Shown in pieces: positions 7,121-36,919 of a DNA stretch of 64,000 nt (position 1 is its first letter; every line of letters starts with the position of its first letter). Source of the DNA: a candidate division WOR-1 bacterium RIFOXYB2_FULL_46_45 (GTDB lineage Bacteria; Margulisbacteria; WOR-1; XYC2-FULL-46-14). The notes under the pieces are model-generated. The model did no database searches. It saw only the letters and a program-made list of their open reading frames with translations, and had not been told where the DNA came from. Position numbers and translations under genes: made by a program. Where the stretch lies: positions 372,001-436,000 of the forward strand of contig MEUE01000003.1 of the NCBI GenBank assembly GCA_001771585.1, in the 5' to 3' direction.

Positions 7121-7194
7121 TGCCCCCGGCAGGACTTGAACCCACAACCTTCTCCTTCGAAGGGAGCCGCTCTATCCAGTTGAGCTACGAGGGC
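7121..7194 (-). tRNA. tRNA-Arg (TCG)
   Basis: Cloverleaf with acceptor GCCCTCG/CGGGGGC, D-arm GCTC/GAGC, anticodon loop CTTCGAA (anticodon TCG) and T-loop TTCAAGT. The discriminator is A and no CCA is encoded. Confidence 0.95.
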
Positions 7195-7284
7195 TCAAGA
7201 AGCGGAGCATTAAACTTTCTTCCTAATTCTACCCAATACTATCGGTAACAGCAAGGACTTCTTCTCTGTTTTATCTCACGTGTA

Positions 7285-9895: not shown

Positions 9896-12126
9896 GTTTT
9901 TTGCAGGCTGGTTAAACTGGTAATAATGTTTCCCGCCCAGCGGTAAACATTGTTTTCCGCGATTATCTTGCGCAGGTTCTCCATCCGGCGTTTTTTCTCT
10001 TCAAGAGGCATAGAGCAGGCCTGTTTCAGGGCATCCGCAAATTCTTCGATCGAATATGGATTGACCTGCAGGGCATCGGCAAACTCCCTGGCGGCTCCGG
10101 TAAATTTGCTCAAGACCAAAACGCCGGAAAGATCGCTCTTGGCCGCTACATATTCTTTTGCCACCAGGTTCATCCCGTCGTGCAGCGAACTGACGATACA
10201 AATACCGCCGATCCGATAATAGGGGCGGATCTCTTCCGGAGTAAAATACCGCTTCAAATAAATGATCGGTTTCCAATTTCCCTCCGCGTATTTGGCGTTT
10301 TTCTTTTCTACCAATTGGTCTATTTCGTCCTCAAGCTCGTGGTAGCGCTTGATCTTTGTCCTGCTCGGAGCGGAAAGCTGCACAAACACAAACTTGTTTT
10401 TGTATTCCGGATACTTTTCCAGAAAACGATCCACCGCCAAAATCCTTTCGACGATCCCTTTGGTATAATCGATTCGGTCAACTCCCACCGCGACAATCTT
10501 ATCTGTGAGACCGAGTTCTTCTTTTATTTTTTGAATTTGTACGGTCTCGATAGCGGAAACGGGCAAGCTAAACATCCCATCGATACTGATCGGGAACGGT
10601 CTGATCAAAGTTTCTCTTCCCATCCTCACTATGCTGTTTTTTTCGTTGTCTACCCGGCACTCGAGAAGGCGGTTGGCGGTATCGAGGAAATTATTGCAAT
10701 GATATTGCACATGAAAGCCGATCAAATCGCAACCCAGCATTCCATCCAGAATCTCCTCCTGGTAAGGGCAAATCGAAAAGACCTCGGTGTTCGGCCAGGG
10801 AATATGCCAAAAAAGGGCGACCGTCGCGTCCGGCCTTTTTTCTTTGATCATTTTTCCCAGCAGGGTAAAATGGTAGTCCTGGATAAAGACAAAGGCATTT
10901 TTTTCCGGAAGCTCCTCAATTATACTGTCCGCAAATTTATGGTTGGCGGATTTATACATCTGCCAGTCGGTTTCCCTGAAGATCGGACGGGTGTGTGTTA
11001 TATGACAGAGCGGCCAGAGCCCTTCGTTGGAAAAACCGTAATAAAAGCCCTCTTCTTCTTCCGGCGTCAACCAGACCCTTTTTAGAATGTAACGGTTATC
11101 CTCCGGCGGCACTCCCAATTTATCTTTTGAATTCACAAATTGGCGGTCGGCATCACCGCTCCCCTGCGCGACCCAAGTCCCACCGCAGGCCCGCATGATC
11201 GGATCAATTGCCGTGACCACTCCGCTGGCAGGCCGGACACATTTAATTTTTCCCGTCCCGGCCTCCGTGACGTGCATGAACGGTTCACGGTTGGAAACAA
11301 CCACCATGGAGCTGTCACCAAGCTTCGCGTGCACCAGATCCTTCAGTTTCGCTTCCGTCCAAAGCTCTTCTTTATTCAGCCGGACCGAAGCGGCGTCGGA
11401 AACGCTTTTTCTTGCCACTCTCAAGCTGAGGGCTACCTGCTCCACCTCACTCGCCAGCGCGCCCAAATCTCCCTTTTCCTTGATCCCGTGCGTTTTATTT
11501 ATCTCGCCTTTCTGGAAATGCTGGAACCAGGTGGTCAATTTCTTTACCGGAGCGGTAAACATCCGCCCGAGTAAAAGAAGAGAAATCAAAAGAAGGGAAA
11601 TAATAAGCAAGACCAGTGTTATGATTATGCTTCTCCAGAAGTTCATCGATCGCGCGAAAACATAAGAAGTATCGTAGATCATCTCGACCATTCCCAATAC
11701 TTTACCCCGATCGTCGGTCACGGGTACGATGTGACTAAAAACATAAATCTTTTTAAATTTGCTAAGTTTATTTTTGGGCAACTTATTTTTAAGAACATCT
11801 TTATAATATTCCAAATCTTCGTCTTTCCATTCTTTAAATCTTTCCGTGATCGCGATCAGTTTTCCGTCGTCGCCGTAAAGCGCGCACCCTTGTATCCTTT
11901 TTTTGTCCTGAAACTTCTTGACCATGCGTTCCGCGCCGGCAATATCTTTTTTTGCAAGCACGTATTTTGCCGACAACTCCACGCTTTCGGCGACAGTTTC
12001 GGCTTTTCTTTGCAGGTCATCCATCAATTTTTCTTCTTCAAACCTGACTTGGACGACGCCAAAGATAATTATAACGGCGGAAACCATAATTATCAGGGGC
12101 AAAACAAAAGTAATTATTTTTTTCAT
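9892..12126 (-). CDS. otsA: Membrane-sensor-fused trehalose-6-phosphate synthase
   Basis: A 744-residue fusion. Residues 4-27 are a membrane segment; about 28-163 form a periplasmic Cache-like sensing region (RIQGCALYGDDGKLIAI, FSHIVPVTDDRGKVLGMVE); 164-187 are a second membrane segment; about 188-240 form a HAMP-like linker with the start of a coiled coil. From about residue 273 comes a full GT20 OtsA domain (VVVSNREPF, the HDYHF-like FIQDYHF, GVDRIDYTKGI, SLHDGMNLVAKEY). It makes trehalose-6-phosphate from NDP-glucose and glucose-6-phosphate. The design implies synthesis gated by an external signal such as osmolarity. The ATG at 12126 behind AAAGGA is preferred over TTG at 12147. Confidence 0.92.
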   Translation of the reverse strand: MKKIITFVLPLIIMVSAVIIIFGVVQVRFEEEKLMDDLQRKAETVAESVELSAKYVLAKKDIAGAERMVKKFQDKKRIQGCALYGDDGKLIAITERFKEWKDEDLEYYKDVLKNKLPKNKLSKFKKIYVFSHIVPVTDDRGKVLGMVEMIYDTSYVFARSMNFWRSIIITLVLLIISLLLISLLLLGRMFTAPVKKLTTWFQHFQKGEINKTHGIKEKGDLGALASEVEQVALSLRVARKSVSDAASVRLNKEELWTEAKLKDLVHAKLGDSSMVVVSNREPFMHVTEAGTGKIKCVRPASGVVTAIDPIMRACGGTWVAQGSGDADRQFVNSKDKLGVPPEDNRYILKRVWLTPEEEEGFYYGFSNEGLWPLCHITHTRPIFRETDWQMYKSANHKFADSIIEELPEKNAFVFIQDYHFTLLGKMIKEKRPDATVALFWHIPWPNTEVFSICPYQEEILDGMLGCDLIGFHVQYHCNNFLDTANRLLECRVDNEKNSIVRMGRETLIRPFPISIDGMFSLPVSAIETVQIQKIKEELGLTDKIVAVGVDRIDYTKGIVERILAVDRFLEKYPEYKNKFVFVQLSAPSRTKIKRYHELEDEIDQLVEKKNAKYAEGNWKPIIYLKRYFTPEEIRPYYRIGGICIVSSLHDGMNLVAKEYVAAKSDLSGVLVLSKFTGAAREFADALQVNPYSIEEFADALKQACSMPLEEKKRRMENLRKIIAENNVYRWAGNIITSLTSLQKT

Positions 12127-12173
12127 ATTGTCCTTTACAAGCTCCAAGTTTGACTTTGACCCGGATCCGATTT

Positions 12174-12202
12174 ATTATCCTTTATTCAAATTAAGATGTC
12201 AA
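12174..12202 (-). promoter_or_regulatory. Promoter of the trehalose operon
   Basis: On the minus strand TTGACA (12202-12197), 17-bp spacer, GATAAT (12179-12174). The leader is about 40 nt and includes AAAGGA before the otsA ATG. It is divergent from the promoter of the coiled-coil outer-membrane protein. Confidence 0.75.
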
Positions 12203-12232
12203 ACTACCGCGAGCCGGAGGCCAATTAACCCG

Positions 12233-12261
12233 TTGACAGCGATTTAATTGAAGTATAAACT
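12233..12261 (+). promoter_or_regulatory. Promoter of coiled-coil outer-membrane protein
   Basis: TTGACA (12233-12238), 17-bp spacer, TAAACT (12256-12261), followed by a leader with AAGGAGGTGA before the ATG at 12301. The start is about 30 bp from the trehalose promoter's -35, so shared regulation is possible. Confidence 0.7.
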
Positions 12262-12300
12262 ATCAATAGCCAACTAGGCAAACAAGGAGGTGAAATTTTA

Positions 12301-13059
12301 ATGAAGAAATTAATTATTTTACTGTTTGCAGTAGTTTTTGTGGCCGGAATCGTCAATGTCGGTATTGCCGCAACACCAAATGAGATAAAAGCGTATATCA
12401 ATACGCTTGAATCAAAATTGAATGTTGCGATCAGGGCAAAAGACAAGAAGAGACAAGCAACTCTTAAACAAATGATTGCCGACCAAAAAGTAAGACTGCA
12501 AGCGGCGGAAATGGCTCCTCCGATCGCTGTTCCTCCTCCGCCACCACCGGCAAGGGTAGCTTCGGCTCCTTCGGCCGGGTTGTTTGGATGGGGACTGAAT
12601 ACGGATATTAATGTCGGCTATTTGATGAATAAATCCATCCTGTTTGGCCGCGCGAATATCGTATTGCCCGATCCGTTGGGATTGGGACCGATCGTCGGTT
12701 TATCGGCGGATTCCGTGAAGTATAAGCTCGGCTTGGGAGGATTCTCAGGGAATGATAATGCGGACGTTAAGTTCCAGGGTGTTCCAATTTACCTGGACGG
12801 CGTCATCAATCTTCCCGAGGACCTTTTGGGTGGAATCAAGTCATACCTGTCAGGCGGTATCAACTATCTGGTTTATCGCACGGGTAAGACCTCCGGTTCC
12901 ATCGGCGGGCAGATCGCTTTCGGGATTGCCGGCAACATCGGTCTGGGCAGTGATACCTGCCTGGAACTCGGATATTCAATCTTGAGAACAGGGGACAAAG
13001 CAGTTGCTCGTTCCTCAAAAGGGTTGACCATATCTGTAGGCCAAGCGATTACGTTATAA
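12301..13059 (+). CDS. Signal peptide / coiled-coil / beta-barrel envelope protein
   Basis: A 252-residue exported protein. The signal peptide covers residues 1-23 (cleavage after NVGIA). A charged coiled coil follows at about 24-72 (IKAYINTLESKL...KDKKRQATLKQM), then a proline linker (about 75-86), then a glycine- and aromatic-rich beta-barrel domain of about 160 residues ending in a hydrophobic strand. It shares this build with the gene at 57281-58051, including Y-x-N-x-L/V-x-x-KL-x-x-A in the coil. The coil may reach the peptidoglycan while the barrel sits in the outer membrane; this is inferred from the build. No named family recognised. Confidence 0.75.
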   Translation: MKKLIILLFAVVFVAGIVNVGIAATPNEIKAYINTLESKLNVAIRAKDKKRQATLKQMIADQKVRLQAAEMAPPIAVPPPPPPARVASAPSAGLFGWGLNTDINVGYLMNKSILFGRANIVLPDPLGLGPIVGLSADSVKYKLGLGGFSGNDNADVKFQGVPIYLDGVINLPEDLLGGIKSYLSGGINYLVYRTGKTSGSIGGQIAFGIAGNIGLGSDTCLELGYSILRTGDKAVARSSKGLTISVGQAITL

Positions 13060-13147
13060 GAACTCGGGGGCCTTTATTTTCTTGAAGGATAACAAGGATA
13101 CTTTAAGGAGATTGGGCTCCCGATTCTTTTTTAAAAGAGGGGGGGAA

Positions 13148-13220
<73 letters not shown>

Positions 13221-13240
13221 TCGCATCAATTATTCTAACA

Positions 13241-13322
13241 TGCCCAGGAGAGGAGTTGAACCTCCAAGCCTTGCGGCACACGGTCCTAAGCCGTGCGTGT
13301 CTGCCAATTCCACCACCTGGGC
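13241..13322 (-). tRNA. tRNA-Leu (TAG)
   Basis: Acceptor GCCCAGG/CCTGGGC, anticodon arm CACGG-CTTAGGA-CCGTG, and the long variable arm expected of a class II leucine tRNA. Discriminator A, no encoded CCA. Confidence 0.97.
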
Positions 13323-13328
13323 ATTTTT

Positions 13329-13401
13329 TGCGCCGCATAGGAATCGAACCTATAACCTTGACATTAAGAGTGTCCTGCTCTGCCAATTGAGCTAGCGGCG
13401 C
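13329..13401 (-). tRNA. tRNA-Lys (CTT)
   Basis: Acceptor GCGCCGC/GCGGCGC, anticodon loop CTCTTAA (anticodon CTT), T-arm ATAGG-TTCGATT-CCTAT, discriminator A, no encoded CCA. Confidence 0.95.
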
Positions 13402-13408
13402 GAAAAAA

Positions 13409-13481
13409 AGCGGGAGACGAGGCTCGAACTCGCGACCCTCACCTTGGCAAGGTGATGCTCTACCAACTGAGCTACTCCCGC
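13409..13481 (-). tRNA. tRNA-Gly (GCC)
   Basis: Acceptor GCGGGAG/CTCCCGC, anticodon arm TCACC-TTGCCAA-GGTGA. Nearly identical in body to the tRNA-Gly(TCC) 190 bp away, a likely duplication with anticodon change. No encoded CCA. Confidence 0.97.
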
Positions 13482-13533
13482 TTATACTTCAATTTTAGGT
13501 GAAATTTTCGATATAGTCAATTGATATAGAAGC

Positions 13534-14712
13534 ATGAGAGTTCGAAACAACGTATCACTCGGACTGTGGGGAAGGTTAAAGCAAATAACCTCTCCTCCCC
13601 ACACACCAAATCAGAGCATAAAAATCGATTCAAACGGTCCGATAGGTCCGCTTAGGATGACAACCGAAACACATTTTACCGTTTCGGATATCGGCTCCGA
13701 AGTATTGATAAGAAGAATTTATTCGGAAAAAAACATAAATCTTCGTTTAAGACCGATTGTCTTGGTTCATGGAGTAGCCTGCAACGGCAACATTTTTAGA
13801 ACCCCGATAGACGGGATCGGTTCGCCTTATGATCTGCAAACGCATTCAATGGCAAATTATCTGGCGGAAAACGGCTTCGACGTTTATGTGGCGCACTTGA
13901 GTACGTCAAAAAGAGTAGTAAGAAGATTTTCAAGCAAACATGAAGCAAGCCGGCATTATAAAGAAGAACAATACCAGTTCCCTCCCCTAATTGATTTTGA
14001 TAAGCTGCTTTTCAACGAACTGCCCGCCTTAATAAAAAAAGTATTGGCTATCCATAAATATTCGGAAGACCTTTTCTATCTGGGACACAGTATGGGAGGG
14101 ATGCTGGCTTATGCTTATTTGGGAACGTGCGGCAGCGACAAAATAAAAGCGGCCGTAACGATCGGAAGTCCGATCAGGTTTGACCAAATCACAATAAAAG
14201 CATTGGATGCCATCGACAAGCTGGCCCAATTGGCCGGACTGGGAGACAAAAAAAATCCGGTAGCCAGAGCCGCGGACAATCTGGTCCCTCTCGGAATCTT
14301 CCTGTCGCATACCCATCATATTCCCGTTGTAAGAAAGCTCGCCAATTACGGCTACGCGGTTCAAAATGTGGAAAAAGAAACCGCGGAAACGTATTTCAGA
14401 AAATCCGCGGAGCCCTTCCCTCCGCAATTGCGCGAACAATTTTTAAAGTGGTCCATAACAAAAGGCTTTACCAGCTTTGGCGGAAATATTAATTACGCCG
14501 ATAGTATGCGCGGGATCAAGGTTCCTTTCCTGCTTTTGGGAGGGAGAAGGGACCATTTGGCCAGAAATGTTTCTGAAGCCGCTTCAAAGATCAGGGGAGC
14601 GGAATATAGGGAAGCGGATGCCGGACACGGGGACTTGATTTTTGGCAGAAACGCGTCCTTTCAAGTATGGGGACCAATTGTCGACTGGCTATTTTTACAA
14701 AACGAACTCTAA
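13534..14712 (+). CDS. Alpha/beta-hydrolase, lipase-like
   Basis: A 392-residue alpha/beta-hydrolase. It has the oxyanion segment IVLVHGVACNGNIF near residue 76, the nucleophile elbow GHSMGG (serine near residue 185), a late acid in LGGRRDHLARN, and the catalytic His in ADAGHGDLIF near residue 370. The wording (FDVYVAHLSTS, HYKEEQYQFPPLIDFD) recalls large lipase/esterase-like proteins related to PHA synthase. No signal peptide is evident, so probably cytoplasmic or membrane-associated. The substrate cannot be inferred. It stands alone between tRNA genes. Confidence 0.8.
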   Translation: MRVRNNVSLGLWGRLKQITSPPHTPNQSIKIDSNGPIGPLRMTTETHFTVSDIGSEVLIRRIYSEKNINLRLRPIVLVHGVACNGNIFRTPIDGIGSPYDLQTHSMANYLAENGFDVYVAHLSTSKRVVRRFSSKHEASRHYKEEQYQFPPLIDFDKLLFNELPALIKKVLAIHKYSEDLFYLGHSMGGMLAYAYLGTCGSDKIKAAVTIGSPIRFDQITIKALDAIDKLAQLAGLGDKKNPVARAADNLVPLGIFLSHTHHIPVVRKLANYGYAVQNVEKETAETYFRKSAEPFPPQLREQFLKWSITKGFTSFGGNINYADSMRGIKVPFLLLGGRRDHLARNVSEAASKIRGAEYREADAGHGDLIFGRNASFQVWGPIVDWLFLQNEL

Positions 14713-14722
14713 AAATCAAAAA

Positions 14723-14796
<74 letters not shown>

Positions 14797-22367: not shown

Positions 22368-22847
22368 ATGGAAATACATTTTAAAACTCCGCCAAATTTT
22401 AAAAATCTCTGCCTGATGGCAGGAAACGTGCCCGATTGGCACCTGTTTGGCAACAATAGCTTCCCGCTAACCGCTTCTACCCTTCAAAGATTCATCAAGT
22501 ATCATTCTACTTATGATTTTGACGGAAAATTCGTCTTTAACAAAAAAAACAATAAGCTTATTCTGGCGCGGGGAGAAGAGACCCTTCACCTTGCCCTGGC
22601 AAGAGAAAGCGATCCCAACTATCAAAAAGAAGATATTGTAGCGGCATTTATAAATTTTAGAAATATTGACGGGGTATTAATTTTTGAGTTGGATGATAAC
22701 TCCACAGAATTCGGCAATCCCTCGGCGGCGGACTTCAGGCAAGCCGCGAGCTATATTAAAGCATTACTTGAAGGCATCCACTACAGCCCAACCATAATTG
22801 AATATCCTGATGAGCCCAAAGTAATAATTGAAGACAGATTAATTTAA
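22368..22847 (+). CDS. Hypothetical protein, 159 aa
   Basis: A soluble 159-residue protein with mixed alpha/beta composition, no signal peptide and no membrane segment; no family recognised. Notable stretches are NVPDWHLFGNNSFPLT, NKLILARGEETLHLALA and VLIFELDDNSTEFG. It is expressed divergently from the Rrf2 operon, starting 10 bases after a weak TAAGAT, and converges on rubrerythrin with a four-base overlap. Confidence 0.6.
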   Translation: MEIHFKTPPNFKNLCLMAGNVPDWHLFGNNSFPLTASTLQRFIKYHSTYDFDGKFVFNKKNNKLILARGEETLHLALARESDPNYQKEDIVAAFINFRNIDGVLIFELDDNSTEFGNPSAADFRQAASYIKALLEGIHYSPTIIEYPDEPKVIIEDRLI

Positions 22848-23422
22848 TAATTCTCGGCTAAAACCTCATAATACGCCTGCGGATGCTTGCAGGCCGGACA
22901 TTCTTTGGGAGCTTCCGCCCCTTCATGCACATAGCCGCAGTTGCGGCAGTGCCATTTAACTTTTTTGTCCCTTTTAAAAACTATTCCCGCTTTTATGTTG
23001 GCCAGCAGCTTGCGGTAGCGCTTCTCGTGCTCTTCCTCCACTTCCGCGATTTCTTTAAACTGAACCGCGATCTCTTCAAATCCTTCTTTTCGGGCAATAT
23101 TTTCCGCGTCCAAATAAAGTTTGCTCCATTCTTCTTTTTCCCCTTCGGCCGCCGCCAACAGATTTTCCTCGGTTGTCCCGATTTTCCCGGCAGGATACAT
23201 CGCGCTGATTTCAACCGCCCCGCCCTCTAAATATTTAAAAAAGCGCTTGGCGTGCTCTTTTTCGTTTTCCGCGGTCTCCAAAAATATCGCCGCAATTTGT
23301 TTGTAGCCCCCCTTGTCCGCCACCGAAGCAAAATAGGTATAACGATTGCGCGCCTGTGATTCCCCCGCGAACGAAGCCAATAGATTCTTCTCGGTCTGGG
23401 TCCCTTTTACACTTTTCATCAT
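22844..23422 (-). CDS. rbr: Rubrerythrin
   Basis: A 192-residue classical rubrerythrin: a ferritin-like diiron domain (residues 1-140, with NLLASFAGESQARNRYTYFA, ENEKEHAKRFF and VEEEHEKRY ligands) and a C-terminal rubredoxin (CRNCGYVHEG...CPACKHP). It reduces hydrogen peroxide in the cytoplasm of anaerobes, with rubredoxin as donor. Last gene of the PerR-headed operon, two bases after ferritin. Confidence 0.96.
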   Translation of the reverse strand: MMKSVKGTQTEKNLLASFAGESQARNRYTYFASVADKGGYKQIAAIFLETAENEKEHAKRFFKYLEGGAVEISAMYPAGKIGTTEENLLAAAEGEKEEWSKLYLDAENIARKEGFEEIAVQFKEIAEVEEEHEKRYRKLLANIKAGIVFKRDKKVKWHCRNCGYVHEGAEAPKECPACKHPQAYYEVLAENY

Positions 23423-23423
23423 T

Positions 23424-23966
23424 TTAATTCCCCCCTGCTACCCCTCCTACAACCGCGGACAAGGTTGCGGGATAGGTAAATATTCTGGTTAACAGCTTTT
23501 GGTCAAGCAGCAGCAAGGCGGAGCTGTTGTCGCCAACCAGTTTTAGCTGCTGCGCGATCTCGTCGGTCTGAGCCTCTTCTTCTATCTGTTCATTGGTAAA
23601 CCATTGCAAAATAGTATTTGAGGCAAAATCGGCTTCCTGCATCGCTATTTTTGCGATATTGTTTATTAACGCCGTAACTTTTTGTTCGTGTTTATTTGCT
23701 TCGACAAAGGCCTCAAGCGGGGACTTCCAGCTTGCGGGGGGAGCATCAATCTTGCCTAAAACTACTTTTCCCATCCGATCGACAATATGCTTATAGAAAA
23801 GCATGGCATGAATCTCCTCCTCCTGCGCCTGGCAGCGCATCCAGTGAGCCGCCCCTTTCAAATTGATCGATTCAAAATAGGCCGACATCGCCAGGTATAA
23901 ATACGCCGAATACAATTCATGCACGATCTGTTCATTCATTATCTTCTCAACATTTTTATTGATCAT
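23424..23966 (-). CDS. ftn: Ferritin
   Basis: A 180-residue non-haem ferritin. Ferroxidase ligands are visible in HELYSAYLYLAMSAYFE, the EEEIHAM helix (ARG/CQAQEEEIHAMLFYKHI) and EQIEEEAQTDEI. Stores iron as ferric oxide, which limits Fenton chemistry during oxygen exposure. Overlaps fprA by four bases. Confidence 0.94.
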   Translation of the reverse strand: MINKNVEKIMNEQIVHELYSAYLYLAMSAYFESINLKGAAHWMRCQAQEEEIHAMLFYKHIVDRMGKVVLGKIDAPPASWKSPLEAFVEANKHEQKVTALINNIAKIAMQEADFASNTILQWFTNEQIEEEAQTDEIAQQLKLVGDNSSALLLLDQKLLTRIFTYPATLSAVVGGVAGGN

Positions 23967-25141
23967 AACAATCCCGCCTCCTTATGTTTTTTTAAAATCT
24001 GATCCGCCAACGCATCTAGTTTTACCAATTCCTCCCTCTTTGGCAACCCTTTTATAATAACCGGCTCCAAGACCTCCACCTTCAAATTTGTAATCATCCC
24101 GGCCAGCTGTTCAACCATCTTGCCGCCCCAGCCATATGATCCGACAATCGAGACAAAACGGGTCTTGGGACGGAGAGCATTGGCTAAAGCGGCGGCATAA
24201 AGGGCCAATGGATGCGCTCCGGCTAAAACGGTCGGAGAACCGATCACAACCGTCGCCGCGTCAACCAACGCCATCGCCAATTCTCCGATATCGACACCGG
24301 ACAAATCAAACGGCTTCACTTTAATCCCGCGGTTAATCAAAGCGGCAATTAGATGATCGACCATCTCTTTGGTCGATCCGTGCATCGAAACATAGGGAAC
24401 AATAACTTCATTTTTTACTTTATCCGAAACCCACTCTTTGTAGGCATCAATTATACATTCGGGATGGTCAAAGACCGGACCGTGGCTCGGGGCGATCATT
24501 TTTACCCCCAAAGCTTCGACTTTTTTAATATTGTTTGCGATAATGCCGCGAAACGGCATCATGATTTCGGCATAATACCTCTTGTTTGAGGGCATCAACT
24601 TTTCCCAATCGGTGACAAAGAGGTCGGAGGTGGCAAAGTGCGAACCAAAAAAGTCGCAGGAAAACAAAATACGCTCTTCCTCCAAAAAGGTAACCATCGT
24701 CTCCGGCCAATGCACCCAGGGGGTATAAATAAATTTTAAAGTCTTATTTCCTAGTGAAAGCATTTCAACATCCTGGACTTCAATAAACTTATCGGGAGCA
24801 ATGTGCAGAAGATCAATCAGCATCGCTTTGCATTTTGGGTTGGTGATTACCTTCGCCATCGGGTAGGCTTCCAAAACCCGGGGGATTGCTCCGGAGTGGT
24901 CCTGTTCGGCATGATTCGCGATCACATAATCGATTCGTTTAACCTCCAACTCGGAAAGGTTTCGCAAAAGCTTGCTCTTCTTGGTCGGGTCAACCGTATC
25001 GATCAAAGCGGTCTTTTCGCTCCCCTGAATCAAATAGGAGTTATATGAAGTTCCATCGGGGAGAGGAATCAGTTCGTCGAATAACCGCCGCTCCCAATCA
25101 ATGGCTCCTACGGAATAGATATAATCATTTAATTTGTTCAA
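23963..25141 (-). CDS. fprA: Flavodiiron protein (oxygen/NO reductase)
   Basis: A 392-residue A-type flavoprotein. The N-terminal beta-lactamase-like diiron domain has HAEQDHSG (HxExDH). The C-terminal flavodoxin domain, from about residue 250, has the FMN motif SMHGSTKEM and GSYGWGG. It reduces O2 to water or NO to N2O using rubredoxin, which is encoded just upstream. No ATG fits: a TTG at 25141 behind AAAGGA gives the family N-terminus ([18 protein letters not shown]) and overlaps the rubredoxin end by 17 bases. Confidence 0.93.
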
Positions 25142-25286
25142 ATTGATCCTTTCCGACCCCGCAGATCGGGCAGACCCAAGAATCCGGGACATCGGCAAAA
25201 GAGGTGCCGGCTTTCACCCCGTTATCGGGATCCCCCGCCGCCGGATCATAAATGTAACCGCAAACCTTGCAGACGTATTTATCCAT
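25125..25286 (-). CDS. rd: Rubredoxin
   Basis: A 53-residue rubredoxin with the two iron-binding loops CKVCGYIYD and CPICGVGKD and the [11 protein letters not shown] core. Electron donor to the downstream flavodiiron protein and rubrerythrin. The ATG at 25286 is used; an upstream in-frame extension overlapping desulfoferrodoxin is not credible. Confidence 0.96.
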
Positions 25287-25288
25287 TT

Positions 25289-25672
25289 TTAGCTCCTCCA
25301 CAATCCGTGCAGGTTGCAATATTCCCTGGCGGAAACGGTTGTTGCCAAGATACAAAATTCCGCCTCCGGCTTATCCCCCGGTTTTAAAAATTCGCGGTAG
25401 GCACGGCCGTCGGCGATCAGCTCGATCCATTCGATATAATGTTTCTCTTCCATCGGATGCGGGACCGCTCCGATTTTTACCTTGTAGCCATTAGACGTCT
25501 TCTCAAGCACCGGAACATGCTTTTCTTTCGCGGCATCAACCGTATTTTCGACTTGCAATATCATCGGCTTGCCGCAGCAGACCAGCTCCCCTCCCCCGAC
25601 GTGGACCACTTCAACAATATTCCCGCAGACACTGCACTTATAAACCTGCAACCTCTCTTTTACATTAGGCAT
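25289..25672 (-). CDS. dfx: Desulfoferrodoxin (superoxide reductase, 2Fe type)
   Basis: A 127-residue desulfoferrodoxin. Centre I at the N-terminus is [20 protein letters not shown] then CC. Centre II is a superoxide reductase with His ligands in [16 protein letters not shown] and the Cys/His pair in [10 protein letters not shown]. It reduces superoxide to peroxide with electrons from rubredoxin. The ATG at 25672 is chosen because the family begins MPNV-KE-LQVYKC. It overlaps perR by 13 bases. Confidence 0.96.
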
Positions 25673-26064
25673 GATTTGCAAACCCCCTTAAAATAAAGAT
25701 GGACCTCGTCAATCTTATGCCCCCGGACCGCCCTATTATTTTCGCACGGACAATCCACTTTATCAATATCAAAAATCTTCCCGCATTTTTTGCACAAAAA
25801 ATGCGAATGGGCCTTATTTTCAAAATCGTACCTTTTTTCGGAGCCGGAAATCGTCAAATTGCCGATAATCCCCTTTTTTGAAAATAGCTCCAGCGTGTTG
25901 TAAACGGTGGTTTTTGAAAGGGAGGGAACCTCTTTGACCAGGGCCTCGTAAATTTCGTCAACGGTCGGATGGGTGCGGTGCCGGTCAAGGTATTTTAAAA
26001 TTTTTATGCGGTGAAACGAAGGGCGGATCCTCTTCTCCTTCAGCTTCTTCTGTAATAATTCCAT
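25660..26064 (-). CDS. perR: PerR/Fur-family metalloregulator
   Basis: A 134-residue Fur-family repressor: an N-terminal winged helix ([31 protein letters not shown], split here by its turns, and [14 protein letters not shown]), metal-binding HSHF and the Zn site CKKC...CKSC at the C-terminus. Its gene leads an operon made only of peroxide, superoxide, oxygen and iron-storage genes, which favours PerR over Fur. The ATG at 26064 lies inside a large palindrome, consistent with autorepression; an upstream start at 26100 would include promoter DNA. Confidence 0.92.
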
Positions 26065-26100
26065 ATTTGGAATTATTACAAACCAGAAGGCAACTGTCAA
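26051..26100 (-). promoter_or_regulatory. perR promoter with 30-bp operator palindrome
   Basis: On the minus strand TTGACA at 26100-26095 and a TAATAAT -10 region at about 26078-26072, about seven bases before the ATG. A perfect inverted repeat with 12-bp arms TGTAATAATTCC and GGAATTATTACA (26051-26062 and 26069-26080, 6-bp centre) covers both the -10 and the start codon. Confidence 0.85.
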
Positions 26101-28249: not shown

Positions 28250-28642
28250 ATGCAAGATAAAGAAGCATTGGATCTTGCCGACGGGTTAAAACTCGGCCTC
28301 ATTACTCCCGAACAAATCCCGGAATTAATTACGACAACCCTCGGAAAAACTCCGGATAAGATGATAGATGCCCTGGTAAAAGATTTAATCCGCGAAAGCA
28401 ATGGGAAAAAACATATCACCATGAGCGCAAAAGTCAGGGACGCGATGGATGCTCTGTTTGATTTTAACTATAAACATATCTACTTCAGCGAAAAGAACCG
28501 GGCATTTGTGCCGACAATAAGAAACTGCCTTGAGGGTTTATATGAACATTACACAAAAGAAGAGAACCTTTCGCCGCAGAAAGCAATTGACGCAATTATA
28601 CTTCTGACCGACCGGCAGGCACTGGAAATACTAAAAAAATAA
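28250..28642 (+). CDS. Small helical protein, possibly dGTPase-tail-like
   Basis: A 130-residue soluble helical protein of no firm family. The region DALFDFNYKHIYFSEKN and the closing IILLTDRQALEILKK faintly recall the C-terminal helical domain of dGTP triphosphohydrolases (which end in a DYIAGMTDRYAL-like motif), but there is no HD domain. It may be a remnant or an independent helical module. It ends one base before the ClpP-like fusion gene, suggesting co-expression. Confidence 0.55.
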   Translation: MQDKEALDLADGLKLGLITPEQIPELITTTLGKTPDKMIDALVKDLIRESNGKKHITMSAKVRDAMDALFDFNYKHIYFSEKNRAFVPTIRNCLEGLYEHYTKEENLSPQKAIDAIILLTDRQALEILKK

Positions 28643-28643
28643 C

Positions 28644-29867
28644 ATGGGACATATACTATTTTACCGCAACTTGCACACCATCAAGCAGAACCGCCCTCTC
28701 CATCTCCCTAACCGAGCCGGGACAACCGACGGGATGGTCGCCTGCTTTACTCCGCCGTCGGGAAAAGAAATTCGCTCCCCCTTCCCCGCCGAAATCTTCA
28801 TGCCGGAAAGGACTCTTTTTATGTCCGGGGAGATTTCAGACGAAATCGCGAAGGTAGCGATAAAATCACTCTTACGCCTGCAAAAAGAAGATCCGGTCTC
28901 ACCAATTTTTTTGTGGATTAATTCGGAAGGAGGAGACGTCGAAGCCGGTTCAAAAATAAAAGAAGCTATCGAAAAACTAACGCCAACGGTTTCAACCGTT
29001 GCCATCGGCCAGGCCTCTTCGATGGCCGCCTTCTTGGCCTCTTCTTGCTCCGGACCGAGGCTGGCATCTGAAAGTACCACCTTAATGTTCCACGGCGCAA
29101 GATATATGGAAGACATCAGAGGCCCAATTGGTGAAACATTAGCCATAGGTTTGGAACTAAGTGAATCGACCAAGAACCAACTGTTTGCTCCGCTTGCGCG
29201 AAGAAGCGGCCAAACGGTTGAGCAATTAACCGGGCTTTTTGCCGAAAAAGACCAGTATTTCGATGCTTCTTCCGCGGTGAAACATAATTTTCTGGATAAG
29301 GTTGTAACTCCCGCGCAAGGAACAGAAAAACACACCGCCGGAACTAAAGCTTCTTATAAAATAACGATCGAGGGAGAGCTTCAGAAAACACAAATTAACC
29401 GAATCATCACCCAAATCATCGCCGGCCTGCTCCTTAAACCGCAAAAAGATATTTCACTAATATTTAACCGGACCTGGGGAGGAGAGCTTACCGACGGGCT
29501 TGCACTCTTCGACCTGATCCGGCTGGTCAATTCTCTTCCCGCTTGCGGCCGAATACTGACTATCGCGAAAGGAAGCTCTCTTAATGGGGTTTCTGTGCTG
29601 ATATTCGCGGCGGGAGCAGAGAGAAAAATTGGCAGTAAAACAAAACTGGTGACAGATCCAATCGAAACACTTATCCCCGCTTATACTCCGGGACCGGCCT
29701 ATCCCCTGTTAATGGCGGAAGCCAGAGTTCAACAAGTTACGCTTATACAGCGCTTCTCCCAATGTTCCAATCAAAGTCCGGAAGCCCTCTCCTTTTTGGC
29801 GCAAAGACAACTGCGTCTATCCGCCAAAAAAGCGCTGCAAAGCGGCTTTGCCGACCAAATCGTTTAA
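28644..29867 (+). CDS. Tandem ClpP-like protein: active plus degenerate domain
   Basis: A 407-residue protein with two ClpP-fold domains. Domain 1 (about 50-225) keeps the triad: Ser126 in GQASSMAA, His150 in LMFHGAR, Asp203 in EKDQYFDASSAV, aligned with Ser102, His127, Asp176 of the clpP gene 1.3 kb downstream. Domain 2 (about 237-407) has the ClpP layout (LIFNRTWGGELTDGLALFD, GSSLNGVSVLIFAAG) but Asn314 replaces Ser and Asp338 replaces His. So it is a covalent ClpP-ClpR-like pair. It may build a ring of seven double subunits or join ordinary ClpP. There is no signal peptide, hence cytoplasmic. Confidence 0.85.
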   Translation: MGHILFYRNLHTIKQNRPLHLPNRAGTTDGMVACFTPPSGKEIRSPFPAEIFMPERTLFMSGEISDEIAKVAIKSLLRLQKEDPVSPIFLWINSEGGDVEAGSKIKEAIEKLTPTVSTVAIGQASSMAAFLASSCSGPRLASESTTLMFHGARYMEDIRGPIGETLAIGLELSESTKNQLFAPLARRSGQTVEQLTGLFAEKDQYFDASSAVKHNFLDKVVTPAQGTEKHTAGTKASYKITIEGELQKTQINRIITQIIAGLLLKPQKDISLIFNRTWGGELTDGLALFDLIRLVNSLPACGRILTIAKGSSLNGVSVLIFAAGAERKIGSKTKLVTDPIETLIPAYTPGPAYPLLMAEARVQQVTLIQRFSQCSNQSPEALSFLAQRQLRLSAKKALQSGFADQIV

Positions 29868-29886
29868 TGATATAATAGTATCATTA
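29848..29886 (+). promoter_or_regulatory. Promoter of tig with minimal leader
   Basis: TTGCCG (29848-29853), 17-bp spacer, TATAAT (29871-29876), nine bases, ATG at 29886. The leader would be 2-3 nt. The promoter overlaps the end of the ClpP-like gene. Confidence 0.7.
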
Positions 29887-31142
29887 TGAAAATATTAAAA
29901 AATGAGCGCGACGGGAACAAGGTTACCCTGGAAATCGAAGAATCGGCGGAAGAATTTACCAAGGCAATCAATGACACCTTGAATGAAACTGTCCAGGATA
30001 TGAAAATCCCCGGTTTCCGCAAGGGAAAAGCCCCCAGATCAATTGTTGAAAAAAATATCAACCAGGAGGCGGTCGACAACCACTCCGCTCAAAATCTAAT
30101 CGGAGACCTCTACCCCCAAATTATCCGCGACCTGAAAATCAGTCCGGTCGATTATCCCAAAATCGAGTTAAAACAGCTTGAACGGGGAAAACCGCTCATT
30201 TTTTCAATTGAGATAGAAGTTTATCCGGAAATTAAGCTTGGAAACTACAAAGGGCTAAAGGCCGAAAAGAAATCGACCGAAGTAAAAGAAGAAGATGTCT
30301 TAAACGTCATGGGCGACTTGCAAAACCGGCTTGCTAAATGGGTTGAGGTGAAAGACCGCGCGGTGAAAGAGGGGGATGTTGTTGATTTGACCCTTCAAGC
30401 GGAGGCGGGAACCCCCTGGCCGCGTGATTTGCAATTTTATCCGGTCGGCAGTAAATATATTTCGGCCGAGTTCGACTCCGAATTGGTCGGACTTACACTT
30501 GAGCAGGAAAAAGAATTCAAAATCCAATTCAAAGAAGATTATCCGGTAAAAGAAGTGGCCGGAAAAGAAATTTCCTTCAAGGTGAAACTTTTAAAAATTT
30601 CGGAGAAGGAACTTCTGCCGCTCGATGACGAATTCGCCAAAAAGATCAGCAAACACGGCACCCTGGCCGAATTCAAGGCCGAGCTGACCAAAAATCTTGA
30701 GGAAGAAAAAAGGGAAGAGGCGGAAGCGGATTTAAAAAACCAGCTGTTGGACGAAGTTTCCAAGAATACCGATATCGAAGTCCCCCGCCCCCTAGTCGAC
30801 AACGAGATCCAGATCATGCTCGACGAGCTGAAGGCCTCCCTCTCCCATTCCAATCTGACTATGGAAAACTATTTGAAAAGCGTTGAAAAATCGGAAGAGG
30901 ATGTTATCTCCGAATTTGTAAAACCGGCAACCGCCAGAGTTAAGGGAAAAATGATTCTGAAGGCGGTGGCGGAGGCGGAAAAACTTGAGGTCGCCGAAAA
31001 AGAACTCAAGGAAGAACTGGCCCGCTATTCCGGCGGCGAAAAACTTACCGAAGGCCAGCTCGATTACGTAAAGGATTATCTCCTCCGCCGAAAAGCGCTT
31101 GATTTTTTGATAAACAATGCCACAATAAGTAGAGGCGGATAA
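29886..31142 (+). CDS. tig: Trigger factor
   Basis: A 418-residue trigger factor: an N-terminal ribosome-binding domain with the signature GFRKGKAPRSIVEK near residue 42, a middle FKBP-like domain (about 150-230, GLTLEQEKEFKIQFKEDYP), and the C-terminal arm domain. A ribosome-bound chaperone and prolyl isomerase. Head of the tig-clpP-lon protein quality-control cluster. Confidence 0.96.
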   Translation: MKILKNERDGNKVTLEIEESAEEFTKAINDTLNETVQDMKIPGFRKGKAPRSIVEKNINQEAVDNHSAQNLIGDLYPQIIRDLKISPVDYPKIELKQLERGKPLIFSIEIEVYPEIKLGNYKGLKAEKKSTEVKEEDVLNVMGDLQNRLAKWVEVKDRAVKEGDVVDLTLQAEAGTPWPRDLQFYPVGSKYISAEFDSELVGLTLEQEKEFKIQFKEDYPVKEVAGKEISFKVKLLKISEKELLPLDDEFAKKISKHGTLAEFKAELTKNLEEEKREEAEADLKNQLLDEVSKNTDIEVPRPLVDNEIQIMLDELKASLSHSNLTMENYLKSVEKSEEDVISEFVKPATARVKGKMILKAVAEAEKLEVAEKELKEELARYSGGEKLTEGQLDYVKDYLLRRKALDFLINNATISRGG

Positions 31143-31152
31143 TTATCCGCCT
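31133..31152 (+). repeat. Perfect 20-nt palindrome between tig and clpP
   Basis: AGGCGGATAA/TTATCCGCCT spans the tig stop codon and sits just before the clpP ribosome binding site. There is no T-run, so it is more likely an mRNA hairpin for processing, stability or attenuation than a terminator. Confidence 0.8.
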
Positions 31153-31169
31153 GAATAGGAGGAATCGAA

Positions 31170-31790
31170 ATGAAAGAAATTAACCAGTTAATCCCCATGG
31201 TGGTTGAACAGAGCCCGCGCGGAGAACGCGCCTACGACATCTACTCCCGCCTGCTGAAAGAGAGGATCATGTTTATCGGGACCCCGATTGATGATAATGT
31301 GGCGAATGTCATCATCGCCCAGCTCCTGTTCCTGGCCGCCGAAGACGCGACCCGCGACATCTCAATCTATATCAATTCACCGGGGGGAGTCGTAACCGCC
31401 GGATTGGCGGTTTACGATACCATGCAATATTTAAAATGCCCAATCTCCACAATTTGTATCGGCCAGGCCGCCAGTTTCGGCGCGGTCCTTTTGGCCGCCG
31501 GAACCAAGGGAAAACGCTACGCCCTTCCCAACGCCAGGATCATGATCCACCAGCCGCTCGGCGGAGCTCAGGGGCAGGCGACCGATATTGAAATCCAGAC
31601 CAAAGAGATCTTGAAGATGAAAAAGCTCTTGAATGAGGTTTTGGTTAAACACACCGGCCAGGATATTTCAAAGATTGAAAAAGACACCGACCGTGATTTT
31701 TATTTAAGCGCGGAAGAAGCGGTAAAATACGGACTGATCGATGAGGTTATTCAACAAGTTAAAGCAGATCCATCTGCCAAGAAAAAATAA
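31170..31790 (+). CDS. clpP: ATP-dependent Clp protease proteolytic subunit
   Basis: A 206-residue ClpP with complete triad Ser102 (GQAASFG), His127 (IMIHQP) and Asp176 (DTDRDF), the [18 protein letters not shown]-terminal loop and the GGAQGQA handle. Typical length. Forms the tetradecameric chamber served by Clp ATPases. AGGAGG precedes the ATG. The usual clpX does not follow; lon does. Confidence 0.97.
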
Positions 31791-31798
31791 GGACAATA

Positions 31799-34225
31799 GT
31801 GCCTCAAGAAAGCAAAGAGAGTAAAATAGCCTCTTTCAAGGATGTCCTCCCTTTGATCCCCCTGCGCAATATGGTCGTCTTCCCGCATATGATCGTCCCC
31901 CTCTTTATCGGAAGGAGCAAATCGATCAAGGCGCTGGAGGAGACCCTGCAAAAAGACAAACTGATCGTCTTTGCCAGCCAAAAAAGCGAAGAAGTGGAAG
32001 ATCCCGGCCCGGAAGACATCTCAAGAATCGGAACTCTGGCGGAGGTGGTGCAGTTTATTCAACTTCCCGACCAGACCACCAAAATCCTGGCGGAGGGGAT
32101 CTGCAGGGTAAAGCTTGAAGAGTTTTTGGGGGGCGGCGTTTATTTGCGGGTTAAGGCCTCCAAAATAATCGAAGAAGAAGGGATGAGTGTTGAGGCGGAG
32201 GGGATGATCCGGACGGTGGTCAAGCAGTTTGAAAAATACGTCAAGCTGAACAAGAAGATCCCCCCCGAAACGGTGATGTCAATCATCAACGTCGATAAGC
32301 CGGGACACTTAGCCGACCTTATCACATCTTACCTGACGCTGAAGATGGAAGACAAGCAGGCCATCCTTGAAACCTTAAACGTTGAAAAACGGCTGGCCAA
32401 GCTCTCCGAAACGATCGAAAAGGAGATTGAGGCGCTCAATGTCGAAAAAGAACTGCAGGGAAAAGTGCGCAACCAGATTGATAAGATGCAAAGGGAATAT
32501 TATCTCAAAGAGAAACTGAAAGTAATTCAGGAAGAGCTGGGGGAAGAAGAGGATGAGCTACAGCCGGAGATCTCCGAATACCGGAAAAAGATCAAAGCGG
32601 CCAAGTTGCCGGAGGAGGTCAGGGAAAAGGCGGAAAAGGAGCTTGAGCGGCTTTCGAAGATGCCCTCAATGCTCTCCGAAGCGAGCGTCATCCGCACCTA
32701 TCTTGACTGGCTGGTGGAGATGCCGTGGAAGACCAAGACCAAAAGTAAAATTGATATCGAAGAGGTAGAAAAAGCGTTGAATGAAGACCACCACGGCTTA
32801 AAAAAGGTAAAAGAGCGGATTCTTGAATATTTCGCGGTACTGGAATTGACCGGAAAGATCGGAGGATCGATTTTATGCCTGGTGGGCCCGCCCGGAGTCG
32901 GTAAGACCTCGATCGCCTCTTCAATCGCCCGCGCGATGGGGCGGAAATTTACCCGCATGTCCCTTGGCGGGGTGCGGGATGAAGCGGAGATCCGCGGCCA
33001 CCGCCGAACCTATGTCGGATCATTGCCGGGAAGGATTATACAATCGATCCATAAGGTAAAAGTCAATAATCCGGTCTTCCTGCTTGATGAAGTCGACAAG
33101 ATCGGGAACGATTTTAGGGGAGATCCCGCTTCGGCCCTTCTTGAAGTTCTTGATCCGGAACAAAATTGCGCCTTCACCGACCATTACATGGAAGTCCCTT
33201 TTGATCTTTCCGAAGTTTTCTTTATAACGACCGCCAATACGATGGAGACGGTCCCCCGCCCGCTCCGCGACCGGATGGAAATTATCCCAATGGCCGGCTA
33301 CACAGAGGAAGAGAAGATCGCGATCGCCGAAGATTATCTAATCGTAAAAGAGCTGAAGGTCCACGGACTTGAAAAATCAAAGATAGAATTTGAGAAAGAA
33401 GGGCTCCGTAAAATTGTTCAGGAGTTTACCAGAGAAGCGGGAGTTCGTGAACTTGAACGGGTAATCGCGAAGATCCTGCGCAAGATCGCCATGAAGATCG
33501 TAAGAAATAAAAAGGAGAACAAAGAAAGCATCATTATCGGCAAAAAGAATATTGAAGAATACCTTGGCGCCCCCAAATACCATTACGGGATCAAAGAAGA
33601 GAAGGACCTGGTCGGGACTGCAACGGGAATGGCCTGGACCGAGGTCGGCGGGGATACCCTGCCAATCGAAGTGACGATTATGCCCGGAAAAGGGAATTTA
33701 ACGATCACCGGACAACTGGGGGATGTGATGCAGGAATCGGCCAAAGCGGCACTAAGCTATGTCCGTTCGAAGGCCAAACAATTTTCACTGCATGAAAATT
33801 TTTACCGCAAGTACGATTTTCATATCCATGTTCCGGAGGGAGCGGTCCCAAAAGACGGTCCATCGGCCGGGATAACCATCGCGACCGCCCTGATCTCGGC
33901 TTTGACCCTGCGGCCGGTGAGAAGGGACATTGCGATGACCGGCGAGATCACGCTAAGAGGAAAGGTTCTGCCGATCGGCGGGTTAAAAGAGAAGGTTTTA
34001 GCCGCCCGCCGCGCGGGGATTACCAATATTATTTTCCCGGCGGATAATTTGAAAGATTATAACGAGATGAAATCGGGGATCCCAAAAGATATCAAAGTTA
34101 ACCCGGTCAAGACGATGGACGAAGTAGTCAAGTTGGCATTGCACCCGCTACATGGGACAACCAAGAAATCTTCCGCCAGGAAACGAATTCATAAGCATCT
34201 CCCCGATAACCGGCTGTACGCTTAA
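31799..34225 (+). CDS. lon: Lon protease (LonA)
   Basis: An 808-residue LonA: N-terminal substrate domain ([20 protein letters not shown]), coiled coil, AAA+ with Walker A GPPGVGKT and Walker [11 protein letters not shown], and a C-terminal peptidase with the Ser in PKDGPSAGI and Lys in [15 protein letters not shown]. Degrades misfolded and regulatory proteins with ATP. GTG start behind AAGGA, eight bases after clpP, so the same operon. Confidence 0.97.
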
Positions 34226-34237
34226 CGCCTCATAAGT

Positions 34238-34250
34238 TATAATAATAGTA
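34238..34250 (+). promoter_or_regulatory. Leaderless -10 of ileS
   Basis: TATAAT (34238-34243), six bases, ATG at 34250; no ribosome binding site. The -35 (TGTACG at 34215-34220 with 17-bp spacing) is weak. Confidence 0.65.
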
Positions 34251-36919
34251 TGGAATACAAGCAAACCCTTAATCTCCCTAAAACCGACCTGCCGATACGA
34301 GCTAATTTGCAGGTTGTAGAGGAAGAGTGCCTGAAGAAGTGGGAAGAGGAGAATACCTATCGGAAGCTTGAGGACAAGAACAAGGACAAGGGTCATGCAA
34401 AATATATTTTGCATGACGGCCCACCCTATCCGAATGGCGACATCCACCTTGGCCACGCGTTAAATAAAGTTTTAAAAGATATCATTATCAAATATAAACT
34501 GATGCGGGGATTCCATGCCCCTTTTGTCCCCGGCTGGGACTGCCACGGACTGCCGATTGAAACACAATTGATCAAAAAACTGGGAGATAAAAGAAAAGAG
34601 CTGGGAATTCTTGAATTTAGAAAACAATGCCGCGAATATGCCCTAGGTTACGTTGAACTGCAAAAGAAGGAATTTGTCCGGCTCGGCTGTTTCGGGGAAT
34701 GGGATAATCCCTACCTGACCCTAAACCACGATTATGAGGAAAAAATCGCCGAGGTCTTTGGCACTCTATCCGAAAAAGGCTATATTTACCGCGGACTAAA
34801 GCCGATCCACTGGTGCCCCTCGTGCGAAACGGCCTTAGCGGAAGCGGAATTGGAATATGAGGACGATAAATCACCAAGCATCTATGTGAAGTTCAAAGTG
34901 ACTAACCCTCTGGAGAGGAGAAGCTTCGTTATATGGACCACAACTCCGTGGACGCTGCCGGCCAATGTGGCGGTGGCGGTGCATCCCGATTTTGAGTACG
35001 TCTTTTTGAAAGTAAAAGATGAAACGTACGTGATCGCCGAGGGGCTGCTTGAGAATTTTGTCGCCAAAGCCGGGATTCCGGAATATGAAATCGTCGGGAA
35101 GACTCGCGGAAAAAACCTGGAAGGAACGATCTTAAAACATCCTTTTCTTGACCGGGAGGTCCCGGTAATACTTGGCGAAATCGTAACGCTTGAACAGGGG
35201 ACCGGCTGTGTCCATATCGCCCCCGGACACGGACAGGAAGATTACCTGCTCGGATTAAAATATAAGCTCCCAATAATCATGCCGGTTAATGAAAAGGGCG
35301 TTTTGGACGACACTACCGGTCCCGGCGCCGGACTGTATTACGATAAGGCCAATAAGGCGATCACCGAATACATGCAACAAAACGGGTCGCTTTTACATCT
35401 TGAATTTTTCAAGCACTCCTACCCTCACTGCTGGAGATGCAAGAAACCGGTCATCTTCCGCGCCACCGAACAGTGGTTTGTCGCGGTTGACCATAATGAT
35501 TTGAGAAAAAAAGCGCTGCAGGCGATAAAAGAGACCAAGTGGTACCCTTCATGGGGAGAAAACCGGATCACCGGAATGGTTGAAGGGCGCCCCGACTGGT
35601 GCATCTCGCGCCAAAGGTCGTGGGGAGTCCCGATCCCCGCTTTTTATTGCGAAAACTGCGGCGAGGTCAACACTACCGGTGAATTCAATAAGGCGGCTCA
35701 AGAATTATTTAAGAAAGAAGGTTCCGACGCCTGGTTCAAATACGACGCTTCTGATATCCTACCCAAAGGGACCAAGTGCCAAAAATGTAACGGGACAAAT
35801 TTTAAGAAAGAGACCGACATTTTAGACGTCTGGTTTGAATCGGGCTCTTCCCATGCCGCCGTTTTGGATGGGATTGCTAATTTATATCTTGAGGGCTCCG
35901 ACCAGCATCGCGGCTGGTTCCAAACTTCACTCTTAACTGCAGTCGGCACTAAGGGCCGCGCGCCATTCAATGCGGTCCTAACCCACGGGTTTACAATCGA
36001 CGACAAGGGAAAAAAGATGAGCAAGTCGCTCGGCAATGTCGTTAATCCACAAGAAGTGGTCAAAAAATACGGAGCGGATGTTTTGCGCCTCTGGGTCGCC
36101 TCTACCGATTTTAGGAACGATATGGCGGCATCGGACAATATCTTAAAACAGGTACAGGACGCTTATTTAAAAATCAGGAACACCTGCCGCTTCTTGGTCA
36201 GCAATTTATATGATTTTGATAAGCCGGTTGAATATCGAGATCTTTTGGAAATCGACAAATGGATACTCTTACGCTTGAATAAACTGATCGAAAAAGTGAC
36301 CAAAGCCTATGACGAATTTGAATTTCATCTGGTTTATCATTCGGTTTATGAATTCTGCGTCAAGGACCTCTCCGCTCTTTATCTGGACATTTTGAAAGAC
36401 CGGCTCTATTGCGAAAAAGCGGATTCTCCCGCCCGGAGGTCCGGACAGACCGCGCTGGCCGAAATTCTGGCGGCATTGATCAAAATGCTGGCGCCGGTCC
36501 TCTCCTTCACCAGCGAAAATATTGCTAAATACTGCGGCGGCCAGGGCTCTATTTTTGAATCGGGCTTTCCGCATACCAACCCAAAATATTATGACCAAAA
36601 ACTGGAAGAAAAATGGGAGATAGTCCTCACCGCGCGGGAAAATGTTTATAAGAAGATTGAGGAACTGCGCGATAAAAAAGAGATTAAGTCCTCTTCGCAG
36701 GCTACGGCAACTATTTATGCCAAAGGGGAAGAGCTGGCGGCGTTAAAATCGCAGGAATTCGAGCTTTCAACCATTTTCATGGTCTCCGAAGTCTTCCTCA
36801 AAGAAGGGGAAAACCATCTTGAAGTTGTTCCGTCTACCCAACCAAAGTGCGAACGCTGCTGGAGATTACTGCCGATTACTGCCGCCGGGATCTGCAAACG
36901 CTGTTCAGAAGCGATTTAG
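34250..36919 (+). CDS. ileS: Isoleucyl-tRNA synthetase
   Basis: An 889-residue class I synthetase: HLGH (in YPNGDIHLGHALNK), the CP1 editing domain (TTPWTLPANVAVAVHPDFEY split by its loops; GTGCVHIAPGHGQEDY), the signature KMSKSLGNVV near residue 589, an anticodon-binding helical domain and a C-terminal zinc knuckle CERCWR...CKRC. Bacterial type, slightly short at the C-terminus. Probably leaderless. Converges on the next gene with a four-base overlap. Confidence 0.97.
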   Translation: MEYKQTLNLPKTDLPIRANLQVVEEECLKKWEEENTYRKLEDKNKDKGHAKYILHDGPPYPNGDIHLGHALNKVLKDIIIKYKLMRGFHAPFVPGWDCHGLPIETQLIKKLGDKRKELGILEFRKQCREYALGYVELQKKEFVRLGCFGEWDNPYLTLNHDYEEKIAEVFGTLSEKGYIYRGLKPIHWCPSCETALAEAELEYEDDKSPSIYVKFKVTNPLERRSFVIWTTTPWTLPANVAVAVHPDFEYVFLKVKDETYVIAEGLLENFVAKAGIPEYEIVGKTRGKNLEGTILKHPFLDREVPVILGEIVTLEQGTGCVHIAPGHGQEDYLLGLKYKLPIIMPVNEKGVLDDTTGPGAGLYYDKANKAITEYMQQNGSLLHLEFFKHSYPHCWRCKKPVIFRATEQWFVAVDHNDLRKKALQAIKETKWYPSWGENRITGMVEGRPDWCISRQRSWGVPIPAFYCENCGEVNTTGEFNKAAQELFKKEGSDAWFKYDASDILPKGTKCQKCNGTNFKKETDILDVWFESGSSHAAVLDGIANLYLEGSDQHRGWFQTSLLTAVGTKGRAPFNAVLTHGFTIDDKGKKMSKSLGNVVNPQEVVKKYGADVLRLWVASTDFRNDMAASDNILKQVQDAYLKIRNTCRFLVSNLYDFDKPVEYRDLLEIDKWILLRLNKLIEKVTKAYDEFEFHLVYHSVYEFCVKDLSALYLDILKDRLYCEKADSPARRSGQTALAEILAALIKMLAPVLSFTSENIAKYCGGQGSIFESGFPHTNPKYYDQKLEEKWEIVLTARENVYKKIEELRDKKEIKSSSQATATIYAKGEELAALKSQEFELSTIFMVSEVFLKEGENHLEVVPSTQPKCERCWRLLPITAAGICKRCSEAI

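Follow-up and report, generated by a model that had tools for sequence, protein, structure and literature searches.

A tandem ClpP-fold protein with one intact and one triad-less domain in a single genome of Ca. Margulisiibacteriota

The stretch of DNA analyzed here (the window, 64,000 nucleotides) carries on one strand a TraF_2-like gene, a dGTPase fragment, an open reading frame with two ClpP domains (the fusion), tig, clpP, lon and valS, in that order (Table 1). The fusion is a single unbroken frame, and the dGTPase fragment ends one base upstream of it. A profile search of the whole genome with the Pfam CLP_protease model (PF00574) matched exactly three places, namely the canonical ClpP (31170) and both halves of the fusion. 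The preliminary description of this locus had proposed two ClpP-fold halves, and both passed the Pfam cut-off of 20.2 bits when they were scanned separately: half 1 alone scored 104.8 bits and half 2 alone scored 44.0 bits (E 2.8e-11). The whole fusion protein remained under the NCBIfam cut-off for the ClpP equivalog (TIGR00493; 114.3 vs 308.6 bits). In local alignments with the genome's own ClpP, half 1 was identical at 55 of 172 positions (~32%, z 36) and half 2 at 39 of 159 (~25%, z 7.4); aligned with each other, the halves were identical at 42 of 176 positions (z 3.9). No domain was detectable in the first 51 residues, and Met30 or Met53 are possible alternative starts. An antisense ORF (28661-29335) showed no codon signal of its own, and PADLOC returned no defence-system match for the fusion.

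Table 1. Positions in the window of the fusion, its parts and the adjoining features.
Feature	Position	Strand	Basis
Tandem ClpP-fold gene, 407 aa	28644..29867	+	ORF, Pfam scans
Half 1, residues 52-222, ClpP domain, intact Ser126/His150/Asp203 and NSxGG motif	28797..29309	+	Pfam, alignment
Linker, ~15 residues (about 222-236)	29310..29354	+	Alignments; low pLDDT at 226-239
Half 2, residues about 238-407, ClpP domain, Asn314/Thr337/Gln389 replacing the triad	29355..29867	+	Pfam, alignment, predicted fold
Genome's canonical single-domain ClpP	31170..31790	+	PF00574 match, 293 bits
dGTP triphosphohydrolase C-terminal fragment, 130 aa, without the HD catalytic part	28250..28642	+	NF002327 positions 198-306/345
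Probable tig promoter TTGCCG-17-TATAAT, overlapping the fusion 3' end	29848..29876	+	TATAAT part common to relatives

The catalytic residues were compared in an alignment of the fusion halves with E. coli ClpP and 24 bacterial ClpPs, using mature E. coli numbering. S126, H150 and D203 of half 1 align with E. coli S97, H122 and D171, exactly the triad that had been claimed for this half; the NSxGG motif is kept as NSEGG, and the glycines of the oxyanion region are present. In half 2 the same positions are N314, T337 and Q389, so that 0 of 3 triad residues are left, and the glycine pair survives in NRTWGG. The earlier placement of Asn314 at the serine position was correct, but Asp338 does not stand at the histidine position; it is the residue next to T337, which does. 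As judged from this alignment, half 2 is dead at all three triad positions.

Structure prediction of the monomer had been suggested as a check, and the predicted folds resemble solved structures of ClpP over the whole of half 1 and, in half 2, over its first 110 residues. The full-length AlphaFold model was made from a 25-row alignment of the fusion with single ClpPs, these aligning to half 1. Residues 53-150 and 171-220 were mostly at pLDDT 71-93, pLDDT was below 50 for the N-terminal 51 residues and for the handle (151-170), and every match of this model in the PDB (Foldseek) was a ClpP, with E about 1e-14. Half 2 had no supporting rows in this model, and ClpP's initial strand-helix-strand-helix-strand order was visible at low confidence. 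Modelled alone, half 2 reached a mean pLDDT of 64.5 from an input alignment that held ClpP rows and so favoured a ClpP fold; the top match of its first 110 residues was ClpP (Z 10-12, 2.0-2.5 Å over ~96 residues). The Pfam sequence match of half 2 is independent of the ClpP rows used for its fold prediction.

A better match to SppA- or NfeD-type proteases had been named as the result that would speak against the ClpP assignment. None was found, and ClpP models score best. SppA carries two ClpP-superfamily domains on a single polypeptide, and in this the fusion resembles it; SppA (S49), however, uses a Lys-Ser dyad, and the fusion does not fit SppA sequence models, scoring 26.5-27.2 bits with SppA_dom against a cut-off of 155.45 and giving no S49 Pfam match at E up to 1. 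NfeD1b (PF25145) gave 13-14 bits, where the cut-off is 40, and the phage ClpP-related head maturation protease model NF045542 gave 63.8 bits against a cut-off of 120. For half 2, Pfam searched at E up to 1 gave no match to SppA, NfeD, hydratase or any further model of the superfamily, and NCBIfam returned only ClpP-type and ClpP-related head-protease models. It is therefore highly improbable that the fusion is a phage-derived protease of the head-maturation type, or an SppA-like tandem protease, instead of a ClpP proper: although half 1 reaches 78.6 bits with PHROG head-maturation families and SppA offers a known tandem with the same superfamily fold, half 1 scores 102 bits with the NCBIfam ClpP model PRK00277 against 52 with the head-maturation model, the top PDB matches are all ClpP, and no phage structural genes lie beside the fusion.

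We further analyzed how far the tandem arrangement extends among relatives. A ClpP-family match is present in 71 of 74 genomes of Ca. Margulisiibacteriota, and the tandem form in one of the 74, that of the window, a bacterium related to Saganbacteria. The preliminary description had asked for the same fusion in related genomes; it was absent from the 73 others of the phylum, including the nearest relative and family member (G001). Across the relatives compared, canonical ClpP is 76-83% similar. Searches with half 2 in three other phyla (384, 398 and 395 genomes; ~1,180) found no fusion, and gave 0, 2 and 5 weak matches, all of them frames of 202-217 aa that are ordinary ClpPs; at the sensitivity used, distant tandem relatives could escape such searches. 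A maximum-likelihood tree that included no cyanobacterial ClpR placed neither half, their end branches (6.8 and 8.9) being saturated, so that the halves may stem from the genome's own ClpP, from another bacterium or from a phage.

The relatives conserve tig-clpP-lon without the fusion. Directly upstream of tig there is a TraF_2-like gene in G010 and a tRNA cluster in G002, G005 and G007. In the window, much of the relatives' tRNA set is found at 13147-14796 and 6422-7194, and this displacement of the cluster from tig indicates that the region has been rearranged. The cluster at 6422-14796 (His, Arg, Gly, Leu, Lys, Gly, Pro) lies ~15 kb from tig, and an oxygen-defence cluster of rubrerythrin, ferritin, flavodiiron protein, desulfoferrodoxin and Fur occupies 22844-26100. 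Full-length copies of the dGTPase (~335 aa) exist in relatives and elsewhere in the window's own genome (G000:C1:1017307). In comparison with the relatives, the fusion and the broken dGTPase gene are inserted upstream of tig.

The position of the fusion had also been read as an operon link to tig-clpP-lon. A TATAAT box ~10 bases upstream of the tig start is found in the window and in G001, G002, G004, G006, G007 and G008, and because it is common to relatives that have no fusion, the argument from neighbourhood, and with it this link, is weakened. A promoter scan of the single genome alone was at chance level (8 found vs 9.3 expected). The box is probably the ancestral tig promoter, in which case tig-clpP-lon would have a promoter of its own. 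Conserved across the order ~10 bases before the tig ATG (window 29871-29886; L160-L165), it suggests by its placement a tig transcript that may be leaderless or nearly so.

These features of the region bear on whether the gene still has a function. It might be a decaying passenger, a foreign ClpP-like gene that was inserted before tig together with the broken dGTPase gene and is now functionless. Consistent with this, the neighbouring dGTPase fragment lacks its catalytic domain, the segment separates tig from a TraF_2-like gene, the two being direct neighbours in G010, and the segment is absent from G001; the fusion is moreover a singleton with no orthologue in the genomes searched, and its codon adaptation is weaker than that of neighbouring genes, which may reflect low expression or recent arrival. 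A 407-codon frame and a catalytic triad that are both intact after very large divergence are nonetheless hard to square with neutral drift. None of 2,000 shuffles of the fusion gene was free of stops, and 144 of 3,663 point changes create one; since drift to ~30% identity from ClpP should have brought stops, selection is the likely reason that the frame was kept. The frame thus appears to have been under selection for most of its history, and we regard a functionless passenger as rather unlikely.

Parts of the ClpP barrel have been lost from both halves. An N-terminal axial-loop segment of 12 to 13 residues and the handle motif QPxGGxxGQATD, each near-invariant in the 24 ClpPs, are unrecognisable in either half. 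The YDIYSRLL segment and the axial loop are missing from both; the handle region aligns poorly in both, with a 5-residue insert after H150 and GGxxGQATD gone. At ten positions of E. coli ClpP that we took to represent the docking cleft, half 1 is still hydrophobic in seven; Y60 -> F and Y62 -> W are conservative replacements, and F49 -> R, F82 -> K and L114 -> S are non-conservative. Two docking positions of half 1 thus keep aromatics, and docking of an ATPase to this half may remain possible. In half 2, which begins directly at the first core strand, the docking-cleft aromatics are absent. The genome encodes two ClpC-type ATPases and no ClpX above the cut-off, so that an ATPase partner is available in principle. 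We also observed that one ClpC (L166:1024-3909, G000:C3) has an N-terminal CxxC zinc-finger segment resembling McsA, and that a 1,841-aa protein (L171:529-6054, G000:C3, near 30000-35500) has a pair of Clp-type ATPase domains ahead of a long unassigned region.

The linker, which spans the equivalents of L189 and E26, constrains how the two halves might be arranged. Fifteen residues would reach at most ~50 Å, which would suffice to place the two halves side by side within one ring but probably not to span the ~90 Å barrel. Because doubles within one ring fill an even number of places and seven is odd, a ClpP-like barrel would have to take in single ClpP subunits to complete its rings, or else have an unusual number of positions per ring. 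The seven-fold rings of double subunits put forward in the preliminary description could not, then, be tiled without single ClpP subunits. Its other proposal, entry into mixed rings with ClpP, is weakened by the absence of the N-terminal segment and handle motif from both halves and by the partial loss of the docking cleft. Since the axial loop, the handle motif and docking-cleft residues have been lost, we favour, at about even odds, a fusion that forms no ClpP-like rings over one that relies on ClpP fillers or an unusual ring number.

In ClpP chambers the building block is the single subunit. Relative to bacterial ClpP (PF00574, peptidase family S14), the fusion shares the fold in both halves and, in half 1, the triad and NSxGG motif, but it has two domains per chain, a dead second domain and no recognisable axial loop or handle motif. 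Like heteromeric ClpP1/ClpP2 (Mycobacterium, Listeria, Pseudomonas), it would bring two different ClpP domains into cooperation; those are separate chains in stacked or mixed rings, whereas the fusion is one chain with a ~15-residue linker. ClpR is a separate inactive subunit (review PMC7966870). The likeness to the ClpR of cyanobacteria, plastids and apicoplasts (PMC7966870) lies in a triad-less ClpP-fold domain that coexists with an active ClpP of the same genome; ClpR, however, is the product of its own gene, a polypeptide that joins ClpP rings, and in the fusion the dead domain shares a chain with a diverged active domain.

An active and a dead ClpP-fold domain do stand in one chain, and to that extent the earlier description of the fusion as a covalent ClpP-ClpR equivalent is accurate; the lost barrel parts weaken the remainder of it. 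For kinship with cyanobacterial or plastid ClpR we found no evidence, as the trees place neither half and half 2 has no match to NF009204, which we take to be the ClpR model. A covalent ClpP-ClpR subunit would join rings of ordinary ClpP (for example three fusions and one ClpP per heptamer), leave them with fewer active sites and work with the genome's ClpC ATPases. In favour of this, the domain order supplies one active and one dead site, and the product of the separate clpP gene could take the odd seventh place. The genome has two ClpC-type ATPases while no ClpX passes the cut-off, the Y60/Y62 equivalents of half 1 are still aromatic, and plastids provide a known case of mixed rings that contain inactive subunits (PMC7966870). 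Nevertheless, both halves have lost the handle and the axial loop together with much of the docking cleft, half 1 would have to pack against a ClpP with which it shares only ~32% identity, tig-clpP-lon appears to own a conserved promoter so that co-expression with the fusion is not implied, and ClpP has no such partner in the 73 other genomes of the phylum. We therefore consider this assembly possible but improbable. That the fusion is a natural covalent active-dead double, forming rings with free ClpP at a fixed active-site count or rings with an even number of positions, is likewise doubtful. The mechanism of the preliminary description is thus possible, but it is not the best supported.

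What lies at this locus is a real, unusual variant, in a single genome, of a known fold. The reading we prefer, with a probability of roughly one half, is that the fusion is a lineage-specific, selected and strongly diverged ClpP paralogue that works outside the canonical ClpC-ClpP barrel. Half 1, with its triad and oxyanion glycines kept, would be a working serine peptidase, and half 2 would be a structural pseudo-enzyme, giving within the chain the neighbour contact that normally comes from another subunit. Neither half retains intact the elements that serve axial gating, the stacking of rings and the docking of ATPases, which are either missing or eroded, and for this reason we infer that the fusion acts as a small assembly, or one of its own kind, outside the barrel and not as a standard subunit. 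For plastids, apicoplasts and bacteria that have two ClpPs, the mixing of active and inactive ClpP subunits is a question of current interest, and a chain in which an active domain is tied to a dead one would serve as a natural experiment on the contacts and the number of active sites that a protease of the ClpP type requires, although the value of this tandem is limited by its occurrence in one genome only.

In the open-access literature we found no report of a natural tandem ClpP, and absence there is not proof. Searches of phage and plasmid collections gave single ClpPs, and a profile scan of 6,532 frames from the collected loci found two ClpP domains per frame only in the window's own gene. 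A structural comparison with a viral library matched single ClpP domains or gave long alignments that superposed badly. Patterns of 8 residues from the fusion, which miss diverged relatives, were not found in viral and genome contigs. Three candidates were rejected on inspection: a match in Bacillus phage FADO with an 87% query span was an over-extended alignment of a single 200-aa ClpP beside an HD hydrolase gene, a second phage match with the same 87% span was really 552 bases with one ClpP domain, and viral contig L244, matching residues 52-407, has two separate clpP genes and not a fusion. In this contig (L244:2932-4115, IMGVR_UViG_3300032093_000032) the two clpP genes overlap by 4 bases, one being canonical and the other strongly diverged, with triads apparently intact in both. 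Elsewhere, a 196-aa ClpP-like gene (L169:4089-6460, G013:C38) adjoins a gene that combines an AAA ATPase with a TOPRIM-like motif; the latter gene appears by eye to be OLD-nuclease-like, and the pair is a possible defence candidate.
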